From Candidatus Gallimonas merdigallinarum (GTDB lineage Bacteria > Bacillota > Clostridia > Christensenellales > Borkfalkiaceae): a DNA stretch of 46,823 bases. This document shows, piece by piece, positions 7,569-37,073 of this stretch. A program made the translations under genes and the position numbers. The first letter of the stretch is position 1; the number at the start of each line of letters is the position of its first letter. Location: the NCBI GenBank assembly GCA_904373325.1, contig CAJFFP010000022.1, forward strand, positions 1 through 46,823, given 5' to 3'. The notes beneath the pieces are model-generated. The model was not told where the DNA came from. It made no database searches and was given only the letters and a program-made list of their open reading frames with translations.

Positions 7569-7871
7569 ATGAAAGAAGTTACGTTACTCACCAATTCTCC
7601 CTTCACGCTCGCGCTCAGCGGCGTGATCGATTCGGGAAACGCCGAAGAGTTTTACGCGGCGGTCAGGGCGTTTTACGGGCAGTCCGATTCCGACATCGTA
7701 TTTTCGTGCGAGAAACTTGAATTTCTCGATTCCACGGCGCTCGGCACGTTCGTAAAAATTCTCAAATTCGTCAAGATGAACGGTCACGGCTTGAAGCTCA
7801 CGGGGCTGAATCCCCGCCTGAAAAAGCTGTTCGTCATCTGCGCGCTCGATAAGATCATGGAGATAGAATGA
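7569..7871 (+). CDS. STAS-domain anti-sigma factor antagonist (SpoIIAA/RsbV-like)
   Basis: Single STAS domain of 100 residues. The regulatory phosphorylation site is preserved as EFLDSTALG with Ser55, the residue that the partner kinase modifies in SpoIIAA/RsbV; unphosphorylated antagonist frees the sigma factor. It is the first gene of a four-gene operon and overlaps the next gene by ATGA. RBS CGGAGG lies upstream of ATG 7569. Whether this operon is SigB-like (stress) or SpoIIA-like (forespore) cannot be settled from this gene. Confidence 0.92.
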   Translation: MKEVTLLTNSPFTLALSGVIDSGNAEEFYAAVRAFYGQSDSDIVFSCEKLEFLDSTALGTFVKILKFVKMNGHGLKLTGLNPRLKKLFVICALDKIMEIE

Positions 7872-8239
7872 TGGACGAATTACTCAGTTTACGCGTTGCG
7901 CTCAGTCCCGACGTGATGACGACGGTGCGGCTTGCAACGGGCGGCTTATGTTCGCTCGTCTCTTTGAGCTATGACGACGGCGAGGACTGCAAGGTCTGCG
8001 TGACCGAGAGCCTTCTGCTCCTTCTGCGCGGCGGGTATGCGTCCGCCCGCGTCGCCTTTGCCGACGGCGACGAACTTTCCGTCTCCGTGGAGGGCGACGG
8101 AGAACGCGGACAGGGTGCAGGCTGCGAGGAGGACGAGATCGCCCTCGCGCTCATCAACGCGCTCGCGCGCGGCGTCGTGATGGAGAGACGGGACGGCGCG
8201 ATCGCAAAGATTACGTTTACCTTCGGAAAGCAGGCATGA
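7868..8239 (+). CDS. Degenerate anti-sigma factor kinase-like protein (RsbW/SpoIIAB position)
   Basis: A 123-residue protein in the position where SpoIIAB/RsbW is expected, between antagonist and sigma factor. By-eye alignment to the GHKL kinase fold finds the N-box helix as CKVCVTESLLLLLRGGY: the Glu is kept, but the Mg-coordinating Asn is Leu. The Gly-rich G1 and G2 ATP-lid motifs are absent (EDEIALALINALARGV). It therefore looks unable to bind ATP, although the beta-sheet edges remain. It overlaps both neighbours by ATGA. The start is ATGATG, so one Met earlier or later is possible. Assignment rests mainly on context. Confidence 0.65.
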   Translation: MMDELLSLRVALSPDVMTTVRLATGGLCSLVSLSYDDGEDCKVCVTESLLLLLRGGYASARVAFADGDELSVSVEGDGERGQGAGCEEDEIALALINALARGVVMERRDGAIAKITFTFGKQA

Positions 8240-8964
8240 ACGACGAAGAACTTTTCCAAAAATACCGCGAAACGGGCGACATTGCCATCCGCAATCAGAT
8301 CGTGGAAAAATATCTCTACATAGCCTCCGTGCTCGCCAAAAAATTCGTCGGGCGCGGCGTGGAGTATGACGATCTGTATCAGGTCGCCTCGCTCGCGCTC
8401 ATCAAGGGCGTGGAGCGCTTCGACGAACGGAAGGGGCTGAAATTCTCTACGTTCATCACGCCCACCATCACGGGCGAGATCAAGAACTATTTCCGCGACC
8501 GCTCCCGCCTCGTACACCTGCCGCGCAAAGTGAGCGAGCTGAGGGTGAGCATCAAGCGCGAAGCGGAAAAATACCTTGCGGAGACGGGGAAAAACGCCAC
8601 CGCGAAGGAGCTTGCCGCGCGCCTCGGGGTGAGCGAAGAAGAGGTGCTGCGCTGTTCGGAGGCTGGCGGGGTCGTCTCGCTCGACAGCACCGTGGATCAC
8701 GAAGGCGACAGCATGAGCCTGCACGACGTGCTCCCTGCCGAGGAGAACATTTTCGAGGACGTGGAGAACAGAGACGCGGTCCGCGCCGCGCTTTCGACGC
8801 TCTCCGATCAGGAGCGCGCGCTCGTCAAATACCGTTTCGGGCATGAGCTTTCGCAGATGGAGACGGCAAAGAGAATGGGCGTTTCGCAGATGAACGTCTC
8901 GCGCATGGAGCGCAAGATCCTGCAAAAACTAAGGGAAAACCTCAAAAAGTCGATGGTGGAATGA
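8236..8964 (+). CDS. RNA polymerase sigma factor, SigB/SigF/SigG family
   Basis: Sigma-70 family group 3 factor of 242 residues. Region 2 is seen in VEYDDLYQVASLALIKGVERFDE with the core-binding and -10 recognition helices (FSTFITPTITGEIKNYFRD), region 3 in LPRKVSEL... to ELAARLGVSEEEV, and region 4 in LSDQERALVKYRFG followed by the helix-turn-helix SQMETAKRMGVSQMNVSRMER. This is the SigB/SigF/SigG architecture. It is flanked on both sides by HATPase-like genes with 4-base overlaps. Forespore or general-stress role is undecided. Confidence 0.92.
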   Translation: MNDEELFQKYRETGDIAIRNQIVEKYLYIASVLAKKFVGRGVEYDDLYQVASLALIKGVERFDERKGLKFSTFITPTITGEIKNYFRDRSRLVHLPRKVSELRVSIKREAEKYLAETGKNATAKELAARLGVSEEEVLRCSEAGGVVSLDSTVDHEGDSMSLHDVLPAEENIFEDVENRDAVRAALSTLSDQERALVKYRFGHELSQMETAKRMGVSQMNVSRMERKILQKLRENLKKSMVE

Positions 8965-9323
8965 TGGATTTCAAAGTGGACGATTACGATGCGCTGCGGC
9001 GCGCGCTTGCCGCAATGTGCGACGCGCTCGAACAGGACGCCGTTTCCGACGACGCCGTATTTAATTGCAGGCTCGTCGCCAACGAGCTGCTCGTGAACGC
9101 GCTGCAATACGGCGGCGGTTGCGCGGCGTTCAGCGTTCGCCGCGACGGGAATACGCTGCGCATCAGCGTGCGGAGCGAGATCGCGTTCTGCCCGCCCGTA
9201 ACGTCCACCTGCTCGGGCGCAGACGACGAACGCGGCAGGGGATTATACCTCGTTGACGCGCTCAGCGAAGCCCGCGGGTACAGCGACGAAGAGGGCATTT
9301 GCGTTGTGATCCGTCTCATCTGA
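8961..9323 (+). CDS. HATPase-domain protein, probable anti-sigma serine kinase (RsbW-like)
   Basis: A 120-residue GHKL ATPase domain. The N-box is intact (CRLVANELLVNALQYGGG, with Glu and Asn), and the ATP-lid G2 motif is present (DERGRGLYLVDAL). The G1 motif DxGxG is hard to find (RSEIAFCPPV instead). This is the better candidate for the active anti-sigma kinase of the operon, although it follows the sigma gene rather than preceding it. It overlaps the sigma gene at ATGATGG. A GC-rich hairpin follows at 9349-9376. Confidence 0.75.
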   Translation: MMDFKVDDYDALRRALAAMCDALEQDAVSDDAVFNCRLVANELLVNALQYGGGCAAFSVRRDGNTLRISVRSEIAFCPPVTSTCSGADDERGRGLYLVDALSEARGYSDEEGICVVIRLI

Positions 9324-29296: not shown

Positions 29297-29794
29297 ATGC
29301 TCTGCGAAAACTGCGGGAAGAACCCCGCGCAGAAATTCATACGCAAGGTCGGCGGGAGAGAGATCGAGGTGGAGCTCTGCCCCGCGTGTTACCGCGCGCT
29401 CTATCCCGAAAAGGAGAACGACTTTTTCACGGCGTTTCTCGGGAGCGGCACGCCCGCGGGCAAGGCGTGCCCCGCGTGCGGCACCACCATGGCGGAATTC
29501 CGCCGCACGGGACTTTTGGGCTGCGCGTACTGTTATTCCGCCTTCCGCGAGGAACTCATTCAGACGGTGCGCAATATGCATAATATGCAGGGCGAGGTGC
29601 GCCACACGGGCAAGCGGCCCGAGGCGTCCGCCGAGGAGAACTACGACCGCGCGCGCGATTTCGCCGCGCGCAAAGAGGCGCTCATCGAACGGCTCGAACA
29701 GGCGATGCGCAGGGGCGATTACGCCGAGGCGCGGCGGCTGCAAGGCGAGCTCAAAGCGCTGAACGCGGAACTTGCGCGGGAGGGGAAGCAATGA
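29297..29794 (+). CDS. mcsA: Protein-arginine kinase activator McsA
   Basis: Zinc-finger activator of the McsB arginine kinase, 165 residues. Two CxxC pairs are seen (CENCGKNPAQ with CPACYRALY, and CPACGTTM with CAYCYSAF), followed by a C-terminal UVR-type coiled coil (EALIERLEQAMRRGDYAEARRLQGELKAL). GGAGG at 29278-29282 is rather far (14 bases) from ATG 29297. It overlaps mcsB by ATGA, giving coupled synthesis of the pair. Confidence 0.94.
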   Translation: MLCENCGKNPAQKFIRKVGGREIEVELCPACYRALYPEKENDFFTAFLGSGTPAGKACPACGTTMAEFRRTGLLGCAYCYSAFREELIQTVRNMHNMQGEVRHTGKRPEASAEENYDRARDFAARKEALIERLEQAMRRGDYAEARRLQGELKALNAELAREGKQ

Positions 29795-30837
29795 CGCAGC
29801 TCAATACCTTCGAGAGCGTCGCCGTATCCACCCGCATACGGCTTGCGCGCAACTTCAAGGACTATCCCTTTCCCGCCCGCCTGCTCAAAGATAAGCACGC
29901 GGAGGAGCAGGCGCACGAGATCGTGCGGCTCATCGCCGCCGAGCTTGCGGAGATCGAGGATTTCTCGCTGTACGAAATGCGTTCCGTCTCCGACGAGCGC
30001 GCGGCGTTTCTGACGGAGCGGTATCTCATATCGCGCGATCTGATCCGCAACCGCGCCATATCGGCGGCGCTCGTCTCGCGCGACGAGACCATCTCCGTCA
30101 TGCTCAACGAGGAGGACCATGTCCGCGAACAGTACTTCACGCAGGGGTTCGATCTGAAAAAAGCGTACGAGCGCATCGCGGGCATCGACGACGTCATCTC
30201 CGAGTCCATTCCCTTCGCGTTTGACGATACGTTCGGCTATCTCACCGCCTGCCCGACCAACCTCGGCACGGGACTGCGCGCCTCCGTCATGCTCTTTCTG
30301 CCCGCGATCACGCGGCGGGGCGTGATGCGCACCATCATGCCGCAGCTCACGCGGCTCGGGCTTACCGTGCGCGGATCGTTCGGCGAGGGGAGCGGCTCTC
30401 AGGGCGATCTCGTTCAGGTGAGCAACGAGGTGACGCTCGGCGTCAGCGAGGAGGATATTCTCTCCGTCGTGGAGCAGTCCGTAGGCTCTGTGGTGGAGCT
30501 GGAACTGATGGAGCGCGCCCGCATGAAGGCGGAAGAGGGCATCGTCCTCAAAGATAAGCTGTGCCGTTCCCTCGGCGCGCTCGAAAACTGCTGTATTCTG
30601 GAAGAGCGGGAGTTCATGCGCCGCGTGGCGGACGTCAAACTCGGTATCGCGCTCGGCTATTTTTCCGTCGGGCGGGAGGGCGAGGAGCGTATGCGCGAGC
30701 TGGACGATCTCGCCATGTCCATGCGCCCCGCGAACATCAACCGCATGAACGGCGCGCCGCTCGACGCGCGCGCGCAGGATATTTACCGCGCGGAGTACGC
30801 GGGCAACGTCGTCCGCGGGATGCAGCTGCATCTGTAA
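29791..30837 (+). CDS. mcsB: Protein arginine kinase McsB
   Basis: ATP:guanido phosphotransferase-fold kinase that phosphorylates arginine residues, tagging proteins for ClpC-ClpP degradation. 348 residues. VSTRIRLARNFKDYPFP starts the kinase domain, the substrate/catalytic segment is MLNEEDHVREQY, and the conserved cysteine loop is CPTNLGTGLRASVM, with later GEGSGSQGDLVQVSNEVTLG. Coupled to mcsA and followed by clpC after 24 bases, the standard stress-module order but without a ctsR repressor gene. Confidence 0.96.
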   Translation: MTQLNTFESVAVSTRIRLARNFKDYPFPARLLKDKHAEEQAHEIVRLIAAELAEIEDFSLYEMRSVSDERAAFLTERYLISRDLIRNRAISAALVSRDETISVMLNEEDHVREQYFTQGFDLKKAYERIAGIDDVISESIPFAFDDTFGYLTACPTNLGTGLRASVMLFLPAITRRGVMRTIMPQLTRLGLTVRGSFGEGSGSQGDLVQVSNEVTLGVSEEDILSVVEQSVGSVVELELMERARMKAEEGIVLKDKLCRSLGALENCCILEEREFMRRVADVKLGIALGYFSVGREGEERMRELDDLAMSMRPANINRMNGAPLDARAQDIYRAEYAGNVVRGMQLHL

Positions 30838-30861
30838 CGGCTCTTTTTTTGGGAGGATATT

Positions 30862-33363
30862 GTGGACACTTCGCATTTTTCCGATCATCTCCGGCAGGCG
30901 GTCGCGCTTGCGGAAGAGGCGGCAAAGGGGTACAAGACCAACTATATCGGCAGCGAGCACGTGCTCATGGCGATGCTGTGCGTGACGGACAGCACCGCAA
31001 GCCGCCTGCTCGTCTCCGCGGGGGTGGATATTGAAAAATTCCGCACCCTCTTTAAGCGCAATTTGCAGCACGATTCCCCCGTACACGGATTCACGCCCCG
31101 CTCCAAAAAGATTTTCGATCTTGCGCGGGAATATTCGCTGCAATCGGAGGAGATCAACGCCATCACGGGCACGGAGCACGTTCTGCTCGCCATTCTGACG
31201 ATGGACGACTGCCTCGCCGTATGGATTCTGCGCACGCTCGGGGCGGACGTGAAGGAGATCACGCGGCGCACCGAGCAGTTCATCGCCCCCGAACCGGAAC
31301 GGGAGGAGGACGGCACGGACGACGAAGCGGACGCGCTGGAACGGCGGCGCAGGGAACTCGCGCGCAGGCTCTTTCCCGCCGCGCAGGAAAAACAGACTTC
31401 CTCGGGCGAGCTGGACGAGACGCTGCTGAATTACGGCGTCGACCTCACGCAGCGCGCGCGGGAGGGAAAACTCGACCCCGTGATCGGGCGGCGCAGGGAG
31501 ATCGAAAAGGTCGTGCAGATCTTATCCCGCCGCACCAAGAACAATCCCGTGCTCATCGGCGAGCCGGGCGTGGGCAAGAGCGCGGTGGTCGAGGGGCTGG
31601 CGCAGGCGATCGTAAGCGGGAAAGTTCCCGAACTTCTGCGCGGCAAGATCGTGTTCTCGCTCGATCTGACGGGGCTTGTCGCGGGCGCGCGCTATCGCGG
31701 CGACTTCGAGGAACGCCTCAAATCGGTCGTGGACGCCATCCGTCGGAACAGCAATATCATTCTCTTTATCGACGAAATCCACATGATCGTCGGTGCGGGC
31801 GGCTCGGCGGACAGCAATCTGGACGCTTCCAACATTTTAAAGCCCATGCTGGCGCGCGGTCAGCTCCAAACGGTGGGCGCGACCACGCTCGAAGAGTACC
31901 GCAAATACATTGAAAAGGACGCCGCGCTCGAACGGCGTTTCACGCCCGTCATCGTCGATCAGCCGAGCGTGGAAGATACCATCACCATTCTGCGCGGGGT
32001 CAAGGATAAGTACGAGGCGCACCACAACGTCGTCATCACGGACGAGGCGATCGAGGCGGCGGCGCGCCTTTCCGACCGCTACATTACCGACCGTTTCCTG
32101 CCCGATAAGGCGATCGACCTCATCGACGAAGCGGCTTCCCGCGCGCGGCTCAACTCCTATAACGGACCCGAAGAGGTGCGCGAGATGGAGGAAAAGCTCG
32201 TGCGGCTCAAAGCGGACAGGGAAAAGGCGCACAAATGGCAGGATACCGCGCGCTGTCAGGAACTTTCGCGCGAGATCGACCTGCTGTCCGTTCAGATCGA
32301 GGCGCGGCGGCAGGCGTGGGCGCGCGGGCGGGACGTGACCCATCTCGCCATCGGAAAAGACGACATTGCCGAGATCGTGAGCAGCTGGACGGGCGTTCCC
32401 GTCGTCAAACTCACGGAGGAGGAGAGCGATCGGCTCATGCACCTCGAAGAGGAGCTGCACCGCCGCATCGTGGGGCAGGACGAGGCGGTCACCGCCGTCG
32501 CGAAGGCGATCCGCCGCGCCCGCGCAGGCTTAAAGGACGCGGGTAAACCCATCGGATCGTTCATCTTCGTCGGACCGACGGGCGTGGGCAAGACCGACCT
32601 TTCCAAGGCACTTGCCGAGAGTATGTTCGGCGACGAGCGTCTGCTCGTCCGTCTGGATATGTCGGAATACATGGAGAAGGCGTCCGTTTCCAAGCTCATC
32701 GGCGCGCCTCCCGGGTATGTGGGGTACGAGGAGAGCGGCGGACAGCTCACGGAGCGCATCCGCACAAAGCCCTATTCGGTGGTGCTGTTCGACGAGATCG
32801 AGAAGGCGCATCCCGACGTGTTCAATATTCTCTTGCAGATCCTCGACGACGGACGGCTGACGGACAGCCGCGGCAGGGAGGTCTCGTTCAAAAACACCGT
32901 CATCATTCTCACGAGCAACGTGGGCGCGCACGAGGTGAAGGACGCCGCGCCGCTCGGCTTCCGCACGGCGGACGAAGTGCAGGCGTACGAGGATATGAAG
33001 GGGCACATCGAGGACGCGCTCAAACGGCAGTTCAAACCCGAGTTTTTAAACCGTCTGGACGATATTATCATCTTCCACAAGCTCTCGCGCGAGGACGCGG
33101 CGAAGATCTGCGAAAAGATCGTGGAATCGCTCGCCAAGCGGCTGAAAGGGAAGGATATCACGCTCAAAGTCAGCGCGCGGGCGCTCAGCCTGCTCGTGGA
33201 GGAGGGGTACAGCGAGGAGTTCGGCGCGCGCCCCTTGAAGCGCGCGGTGCGCCGCCGCATCGAGGACCCGCTCTCCGAACAGGTGCTCCTCGGGCGCGTC
33301 TCCGCGGGAAAAACGATCATCGTGGACGAAGAGGACGGAAAATTCACCTTCTCGGAGGAATGA
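30862..33363 (+). CDS. clpC: ATP-dependent Clp protease ATP-binding subunit ClpC
   Basis: AAA+ unfoldase of 833 residues, partner of ClpP. It has the N-terminal repeat domain that reads phosphoarginine marks (SEHVLMAML and [10 protein letters not shown] halves), D1 with Walker [14 protein letters not shown] and Walker [16 protein letters not shown], the UVR/M-domain ([18 protein letters not shown]...), and D2 with [14 protein letters not shown], Walker [14 protein letters not shown], and the conserved [10 protein letters not shown]. The start is GTG 30862 preceded by GGGAGG. I saw no CtsR-type direct repeat (GGTCAAA) upstream of the operon. Ends at a shared terminator 33381-33407. Confidence 0.97.
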
Positions 33364-36122: not shown

Positions 36123-36189
36123 AAAATTGTCGCCTCGACAATTTTGAACAAAATTCATACAATTTCGTAAATAATTCTTTGAATTTTGT
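36123..36189. promoter_or_regulatory. AT-rich nested inverted repeats upstream of spo0A
   Basis: AAAATTGTCG (36123-36132)/CGACAATTTT (36136-36145) is a perfect 10-bp palindrome with 3-base centre; ACAAAATTCA (36148-36157)/TGAATTTTGT (36180-36189) is a second pair. The first contains TTGTCG in both directions, close to the Spo0A box core TGTCGAA (one mismatch on one strand). Candidate autoregulatory sites; function is inference. Confidence 0.5.
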
Positions 36190-36200
36190 ACAAAAATGAC

Positions 36201-36229
36201 TTTACAAATCTGAATTTGTGTTTTATAAT
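36201..36229 (+). promoter_or_regulatory. Sigma-A promoter of spo0A
   Basis: TTTACA (36201-36206), 17-base spacer, TATAAT (36224-36229), 32 bases before ATG 36262. The surrounding 36120-36240 is markedly AT-rich. Confidence 0.85.
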
Positions 36230-36261
36230 GCGCTTACTAACGGTTTTTGGAGGAAAGGTGG

Positions 36262-37014
36262 ATGAAAAAGATACTCATTCTGGAAAGCAATGAAACGTTT
36301 GCGGAGGAGCTTTCCTCGCACTTTTCGCGGGCGGGATACGAGGTCTGCGGTGTGACGGGCGACGGCGGAGAGGGGCTTGCGCTGCTTGAAAAGTGCGCGC
36401 CCGGCGTGGTGGTGACGAGCCTGCTTCTGACGACGCTCGACGGCTTCACCGTCATGGAGCGGGCGAAGAAGGCGGGGAACAAGGCGGACTTCATCGTGCT
36501 CGGCAACTTCACCGACGATAAGATCATCAACCGCGCCATTGCGCTCGGTGCGCGGTACTATCTCGTCAAACCCGTCTCGGCGGCGATCGTCGAGGAGCGG
36601 GTGGCGGAAGTCTCCGAAGAGACGCCCGAACCCGTGCGCGAAAAGCTCGAACGCAAGCGCGCGGGATCGCTGGACGAGCGCATCAGCAACATTTTCATTT
36701 CCATCGGCATTCCGCCGCATATCAAGGGATACAACTATCTCCGCGAGGGGATCAAGATGGCGGTTGCCGATCCGCACGTCATCAACAACGTCACGAAAGG
36801 GCTGTATCCCGTCATCGGCGAAAAGTACGGCACTTCGGCAAGCAAGGTGGAACGCGCCATCCGTCACGCGATCGAAGTCGCGTGGAACCGCGGGCGCATC
36901 GACGCGGTGAACGCCATTTTCGGGGCGCGCGTCTATATCGGCACGGAGAAGCCGACGAACAGCGAATTTATCGCGCTCGTTGCCGATAAACTCATTCTCG
37001 AAAACATGGTATAA
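36262..37014 (+). CDS. spo0A: Sporulation transcription factor Spo0A with degenerate receiver domain
   Basis: Spo0A-type response regulator of 250 residues. The C-terminal effector domain is canonical (SLDERISNIFISIGIPPHIKGYNYLREGIKMA, YPVIGEKYGTSASKVERAIRHAIEVAWNRG), including the recognition helix. The N-terminal receiver has lost its chemistry: the acidic pair (Asp10-Asp11 in B. subtilis) is Glu8-Ser9, the phospho-acceptor Asp56 aligns with Ser53 in TSLLLTTLDG, and the switch Thr84 is Gly81; only Lys103 (YLVKP) remains. It therefore probably cannot be phosphorylated in the usual way and may act constitutively or by another input. GGAGG precedes ATG 36262; a TTG 15 bases upstream overlaps the RBS. 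Monocistronic, with promoter and terminator; spoIVB, its usual neighbour, is absent here. Confidence 0.9.
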   Translation: MKKILILESNETFAEELSSHFSRAGYEVCGVTGDGGEGLALLEKCAPGVVVTSLLLTTLDGFTVMERAKKAGNKADFIVLGNFTDDKIINRAIALGARYYLVKPVSAAIVEERVAEVSEETPEPVREKLERKRAGSLDERISNIFISIGIPPHIKGYNYLREGIKMAVADPHVINNVTKGLYPVIGEKYGTSASKVERAIRHAIEVAWNRGRIDAVNAIFGARVYIGTEKPTNSEFIALVADKLILENMV

Positions 37015-37027
37015 ACGGCATTTTTCC

Positions 37028-37073
37028 GCCGCCCGCCCCGCCGCACGCTCCGCGGCGGGGCGGGCGGCTTTTT
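37028..37073 (+). terminator. Intrinsic terminator after spo0A
   Basis: Perfect 17-bp GC stem (37028-37044 with 37052-37068), 7-base loop, five T residues (37069-37073). Confidence 0.95.

Follow-up and report, generated by a model that had tools for sequence, protein, structure and literature searches.

A Spo0A homologue with a pseudo-receiver domain

The window, meaning the whole stretch of DNA analysed (46,823 nucleotides of contig CAJFFP010000022.1 in assembly GCA_904373325.1 of Candidatus Gallimonas merdigallinarum, family Borkfalkiaceae), contains a spo0A gene preceded by two palindromes, a promoter and a ribosome-binding site and followed by a terminator-like hairpin (Table 1). The scan for terminator-like sites returned 2 against 2.2 in shuffled sequence, so as a class these sites are not above chance.

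Table 1. Features of the spo0A locus, in window coordinates
Feature	Position	Strand	Basis
Palindrome TTTTGAACAAAA, one mismatch to TTTTGTACAAAA	36142..36153	+	
Palindrome TTTTGTACAAAA, exact, 42 bp past the first	36184..36195	+	conserved upstream alignment
Sigma-70-type promoter TTTACA-17-TATAAT, 11 of 12	36201..36229	+	conserved upstream alignment
Ribosome-binding site GGAGG	36249..36253	+	sequence
spo0A, 250 aa, pseudo-receiver and Spo0A_C	36262..37014	+	
Pseudo-receiver domain, residues 1-115	36262..36606	+	
Glu8-Ser9 where the acidic pair is expected	36283..36288	+	alignment
Ser53 (AGC) at the phospho-acceptor Asp site	36418..36420	+	alignment
Gly81 at the switch Thr site	36502..36504	+	alignment
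Lys103, conserved Lys kept	36568..36570	+	alignment
Spo0A_C DNA-binding domain	36682..36993	+	PF08769
Terminator-like hairpin and T-run behind spo0A, 17 G-C pairs	37028..37068	+	

The gene product matches the curated Spo0A equivalog at 233.9 bits (cut-off 200). Its DNA-binding domain, described as fully conserved in an initial annotation made from the letters of the window, gives a complete match to PF08769 (136.2 bits, profile positions 1-104 of 104), with 1fc3 and 1lq1 as the best solved matches. The same annotation had proposed, by comparison with B. subtilis Spo0A, that the receiver has serine 53 for the acceptor aspartate, Glu8-Ser9 for the acidic pair and Gly81 for the switch threonine, with only Lys103 kept, and alignment confirmed each of these assignments. 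A phosphorylatable receiver combines an acidic pair, Asp, Thr or Ser, and Lys, a set that E8-S9, S53, G81 and K103 do not make up. Although these key catalytic residues are absent, the domain is still recognised as a receiver above threshold (PF00072, 48.7 bits, cut-off 30.2) and the fold is retained in a confident predicted model, which is what defines a pseudo-receiver and bears out the annotation on this point. Neither the sequence alignment nor the topology of the model revealed a functional aspartate in the acidic pocket. Judged by domain content and score, the product is a Spo0A homologue but no canonical phospho-regulated Spo0A.

Distribution of the missing aspartate

Residues in the genus were counted over 121 sequences, comprising the query and the 120 best matches listed out of 7,859 homologues. 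Among these, position 53 is serine in 117 (asparagine in 2, glycine in 1, aspartate in 1), E8, N10, G81 and K103 are present in 121/121, N82 is present in 119/121, and position 9 is serine in 106, glycine in 10 and alanine in 5. On these sequences, the lack of the acceptor aspartate is fixed in the genus. The nearest loci among named genomes belong to a Clostridia MAG (86%) and to Candidatus Gallimonas faecavium (85%).

At the level of the family, 61 genomes were searched and 57 of them gave 59 full-length Spo0A rows; G018, G033 and G044 had no full-length match and G019 had a C-terminal piece only, and partial or weak extra hits (L067-L073) as well as some further matches to Spo0A_C only were left out. 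The aspartate column of the 59 rows reads G 16, D 15, E 12, S 11, N 4 and A 1, and thus the aspartate is absent in 44 rows and kept in 15. By genus, 12 of 18 have Asp-less rows only, five have Asp rows only and one has both. The two acidic residues, the aspartate and the lysine occur all together in a single one of the 59 rows. Rows L050-L066, L100 and L101 include genera in which Asp56 is retained and other pocket residues are gone, as well as an order genome (G180) that carries an Asp-bearing Spo0A and a divergent Glu-type paralogue.

Other families of the order were represented by 40 rows from 36 genomes, mostly the best match of each genome, hand-picked from the 136 of 151 genomes having a Spo0A match. 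Aspartate is found in 35 of these rows and glutamate in five, and one of the five glutamate rows is an additional copy in a genome that also has an Asp-bearing Spo0A. None of the 26 distant named loci, which rank last among the 80 best named loci and include a few MAGs of unknown order, is Asp-less, and of the 54 named loci in between (L114-L167, some on the same contigs as family rows), 34 have the aspartate. A 100-row tree, constructed by a quick method with the trait columns excluded and containing several long branches, requires at least nine changes of the aspartate state, counted in either direction, and four of these are forced by well-supported branches; on a tree of 141 rows the state changes 13 times.

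Selection on the receiver

Pairwise dN/dS was calculated for 12 genus sequences (66 pairs), with synonymous sites near saturation and with 10, 23 and 10 pairs dropped for the receiver, linker and DNA-binding domain, respectively. Median values were 0.163 (receiver), 0.308 (linker) and 0.060 (DNA-binding domain), and the receiver is under purifying selection. The Asp-less family rows, 44 in number, have a pairwise identity of 0.36 in the receiver without its key positions and of 0.76 in the DNA-binding domain. Conservation and dN/dS rule out a sequencing error or a recent pseudogene, and the protein as a whole is not decaying.

The residues have been lost in a recognisable pattern, in which the second acidic residue is non-acidic (Ser), an Asn stands behind the lost Thr and there is no Pro at D+4, while the aromatic at K-3 and the Gly at D+8 are retained. 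This agrees with the pseudo-receiver trends given in the available part of PMC12632262. Loose kinase-docking residues, considered as a further sign of aspartate loss, were rejected as such because the looseness is order-wide, even where the aspartate is kept. With docking positions inferred from the seven letters printed in the accessible portion of PMC6136694, the ratio of their conservation to that of the rest of the receiver was 1.14 in the 26 distant loci and 0.59 in the 35 Asp-bearing order rows, and within the family 0.58 in the 15 Asp-bearing and 0.62 in the 44 Asp-less rows.

A receiver that is constrained in this way, with its former active-site residues conserved in the genus instead of drifting, would also be expected if the domain were gated by a small ligand, a partner protein or another modification (for example phosphorylation of Ser53 by a Ser/Thr kinase) that sets dimerisation, and the text available from PMC12632262 places other pseudo-receivers under partner or redox control. 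As no single substitute for the aspartate is common to the family, where five different residues take its place, we regard gating of this kind as a possible but somewhat unlikely alternative to control through the amount of Spo0A.

The spo0A upstream region and gene neighbourhood

In its 18-bp form, allowing up to three mismatches, the palindrome is matched three times in the window, where 0.01 matches would be expected, and two of the three lie upstream of spo0A. With at most one mismatch, it is present in the 250 bp preceding spo0A in 29/43 Asp-less family loci (0.6 expected), and in 2/15 Asp-bearing family, 6/39 order, 17/51 closer named and 1/26 distant loci. A spacing of 21 bp is seen most often, in 18 cases when duplicates between sets are included. 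The raw link between palindrome and aspartate loss (41/66 versus 11/75) gives a Fisher p of 4e-9 over 141 unique loci and of 6e-4 within the family. We nevertheless do not claim that the palindrome array is a result of aspartate loss, as a test on supported branches, with only three independent pairs and a median sign-test p of 1, did not support a phylogenetically independent link. Sites with at most one mismatch are not clearly above a reversed-pattern control in several of 13 genus genomes (18 vs 5 in the genome of the window, 7 vs 9 in G205 and 14 vs 14 in G209). One further exact site is present in the genome of the window, just before an open reading frame read as tyrS, and no candidate therefore emerged for a regulator gene tagged by this palindrome. 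The reader of the palindrome may be Spo0A itself, since TTTTGT is common to the palindrome and the 0A box. In addition, an inverted repeat (ACAAAT-CTGA-ATTTGT, window positions 36204-36219) begins in the -35 element of spo0A, fills part of the spacer and is partly conserved in the genus.

Of 12 genus loci, 7 carry an exact 0A box in the 200 nt preceding spo0A (0.56 expected), and 23 of 43 Asp-less family loci carry one in the preceding 250 nt (1.8 expected). Exact boxes also occur at 10/15 Asp-bearing family, 15/39 order, 29/51 closer named and 17/26 distant spo0A loci, and as they accompany Asp-bearing spo0A genes too, the boxes alone are no proof of a move to abundance control. The region upstream of spo0A in the window has one-mismatch boxes and no exact box, and no exact box was found in the 300 nt upstream of spoIIGA, spoIIAA and spoIIE in the same genome. 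Among five genus genomes for each gene, exact boxes precede spoIIE in two, spoIIAA in one and spoIIGA in none.

The gene pair upstream of spo0A in the locus L169 was read as SpoIVB and RecN, and among the 26 distant loci a gene of the first type neighbours spo0A in 19 and one of the second type in 18. Neither type was found near spo0A in the 54 closer named loci (flanks of up to 3 kb) or in the 59 family loci (flanks of up to 1.5 kb). About 3 kb upstream of spo0A and on the same strand, the window carries open reading frames read as McsA, McsB and ClpC (29297-33363). This ClpC, considered for a degradation route, was matched in no other locus, the flanks being too short to judge.

Spore-stage genes

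SpoIVA was matched in 59 of the 61 family genomes (54 over cut-off), SpoVAC/AEB in 57 and SpoIIIAE in 53, both over cut-off. SpoIIE was also matched in 59, none over cut-off, with one match reaching only 2e-7 and some being fragments. The SigF model matched all 61 genomes, none over cut-off, and 11 of 14 control genomes as well, and is thus not specific. SASP (PF00269) was found in 0/61 family genomes by a profile for which B. subtilis was the sole positive of the 14 controls and which could miss divergent SASPs.

The genome of the window contains SpoIIAA-SpoIIAB-SigF and SpoIIGA-SigE-SigG-YlmC clusters, in a gene order that we take to be that of known spore-formers. SpoIIAB, SigE, YlmC and SpoIVA score over their cut-offs there, and SpoIIAA, SigF, SigG and SpoIIGA, which are below their equivalog cut-offs, were identified from their best match and from gene order. 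Of the features expected of an endospore-former, SpoIVA, a sigma-F/E/G set, SpoIIIAE and SpoVAC are present and SASP is absent. A spore-type programme is thus encoded, and the SASP count makes usual mature spores less likely. Elsewhere in the window (7569-9323), a sigma factor at 8236-8964, whose best model is SigBFG (223.5 bits, cut-off 234.35), is flanked by small open reading frames read as a STAS antagonist and anti-sigma ATPases, which is perhaps a SigB-like stress module.

The lineage may instead be non-sporulating, with Spo0A left over or kept for other genes and its receiver eroding. Absence of sporulation is the verdict that SpoMAG returned for Borkfalkiaceae MAGs of one host set, as reported in PMC12536801, and decay would fit the missing SASP, the repeated changes of the aspartate state on both trees and the docking positions that are already loose across the order. 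Arguments against decay are that the DNA-binding domain is strongly and the receiver moderately constrained, that SpoIVA, SpoVAC, SpoIIIAE and, below cut-off, SpoIIE are widely retained, and that the genome itself has the sigma-factor clusters, and Borkfalkiaceae MAGs are among those given sporulation potential in PMC11536998. The literature therefore judges the sporulation of this family both ways, and we consider decay unlikely.

Spo0A copy number and histidine kinases

A second canonical spo0A, which would have made this gene a paralogue in the terms of the initial annotation, was searched for in the 92.6%-complete genome (38 contigs) and none was found, the number of Spo0A_C matches being one. 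The genome encodes six receivers including Spo0A, and the five others are canonical. Searching with the PF02518 profile, on which a GHKL-type kinase scores weakly, gave ten HATPase matches. Histidine kinases account for five of them (HisKA or HisKA_3 is present in four, and the fifth is of GHKL type), and the rest are SpoIIAB and open reading frames read as GyrB/ParE (two), MutL and HtpG. Each histidine kinase adjoins one of the five other receivers, and no orphan kinase was detected with this one profile in the 92.6%-complete genome. By comparison, PMC6136694 reports 48 spore-formers of which all except one have at least one orphan kinase, and states that the experimentally verified sporulation kinases are all orphans.

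Four genus-mates that are 98-99% complete have a single Spo0A_C match each, of the Ser53 type, and a further one, G186, has one full-length Spo0A, also of the Ser53 type, and two 130-aa Spo0A_C frames. Extra hits to Spo0A_C only, mostly frames of about 120-180 residues, were also seen in other family genomes (for example G001, G010, G015, G019, G035, G048 and G059). That an incomplete, fragmented assembly searched for kinases with one profile hides a canonical Spo0A or a kinase, leaving the gene described here as a paralogue, is highly improbable given these genus-mates.

Discussion

The initial annotation had read this gene as a master regulator uncoupled from the phosphorelay and controlled by its abundance, another ligand or a partner protein, a reading upheld in part: the pseudo-receiver, the single Spo0A_C match in a 92.6%-complete genome and the lack of an orphan among the histidine kinases detected with one profile stand, and to these are added the fixation of the trait in the genus, its prevalence in the family and a spore-type sigma cascade in the genome. 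Uncoupling from canonical His-to-Asp phosphotransfer is well supported by the residues of the receiver. Activity without phosphate is likely, because the protein is conserved and no other Spo0A was found in the genome, although unphosphorylated Spo0A may bind DNA poorly. That control lies in the amount of the protein is a guess on our part, which the conserved promoter favours and whose main rival is a ligand or partner. Taken as one proposal, a Spo0A that acts without an aspartyl phosphate, with its amount as the main point of control, stands, in our judgement, about an even chance of being correct.

Under this proposal of control by amount, Spo0A would be an atypical response regulator whose folded pseudo-receiver offers a surface that dimerises or docks a partner without phosphate, and whose DNA-binding domain would still read 0A boxes. 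The decision would be set mainly by how much Spo0A is produced, and this amount in turn by the near-consensus sigma-A-type promoter, the 0A boxes or near-boxes and the phased TTTTGTACAAAA palindromes. Spo0A would probably act on its own gene, and its targets may also include spoIIE and further entry genes of the retained sigma-F/E/G programme. As the switch is lost in most members of the family and many spore genes are kept, the sporulation decision would be under other control. More tentatively, and with less confidence than in the proposal for this one protein, most of the family may run an endospore-type programme under phosphate-free Spo0A, kinase input having been dropped in several separate lineages and the decision now being made at the spo0A promoter, through a palindrome array read by some regulator or by Spo0A.

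The protein shares with canonical Spo0A (TIGR02875; B. subtilis, Clostridium) the architecture of receiver and Spo0A_C, a DNA-binding domain 55-58% identical to the solved ones and, in many relatives, 0A boxes upstream of the gene. It differs from canonical Spo0A in that the phospho-acceptor aspartate, the full acidic pair and the switch threonine are all missing, and in that the SpoIVB and RecN neighbours of many distant spo0A loci were not found in the flanks, of up to 1.5 kb, of the family loci. Like the pseudo- or aspartate-less receivers CmrT, RitR, JadR1 and ChxR, as far as the available sources describe them, it keeps the receiver and has lost key residues; it differs from them in having Spo0A_C as its effector and in being the sole Spo0A detected in its genome. 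Non-spore-formers that bear Spo0A are described in the accessible portions of PMC6136694 (15 of 68 genomes) and PMC3533761 (30 genomes), and one organism there also has no SASP genes, but in these portions loss of the acceptor aspartate is not described for them. Pseudo-receivers and Spo0A-bearing non-spore-formers are thus already known. A search of the open-access literature by title and start of abstract found no paper on a Spo0A without its aspartate, and for a sole Spo0A lacking it across a family, beside spore-stage genes, we found no precedent in that literature.

The phosphorylation of Spo0A is the key switch launching sporulation in bacilli and clostridia according to the available text of PMC3533761, and spo0A presence serves as the first criterion of sporulation potential in the corresponding text of PMC11536998. 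With the aspartate lost in most members of a family that keeps the gene, the presence of spo0A would be a weaker marker of sporulation potential in uncultured genomes. The switching of bacterial pseudo-receivers is called a mystery in the available part of PMC12632262, and the Asp-less Spo0A brings together an effector domain and a DNA motif that are both known and a natural series of relatives in which the aspartate is either present or missing. As Spo0A and spore-stage genes are kept and the acceptor aspartate is lost in most of its members, this family of small-genome gut bacteria would provide a natural experiment on the purpose of Spo0A phosphorylation.
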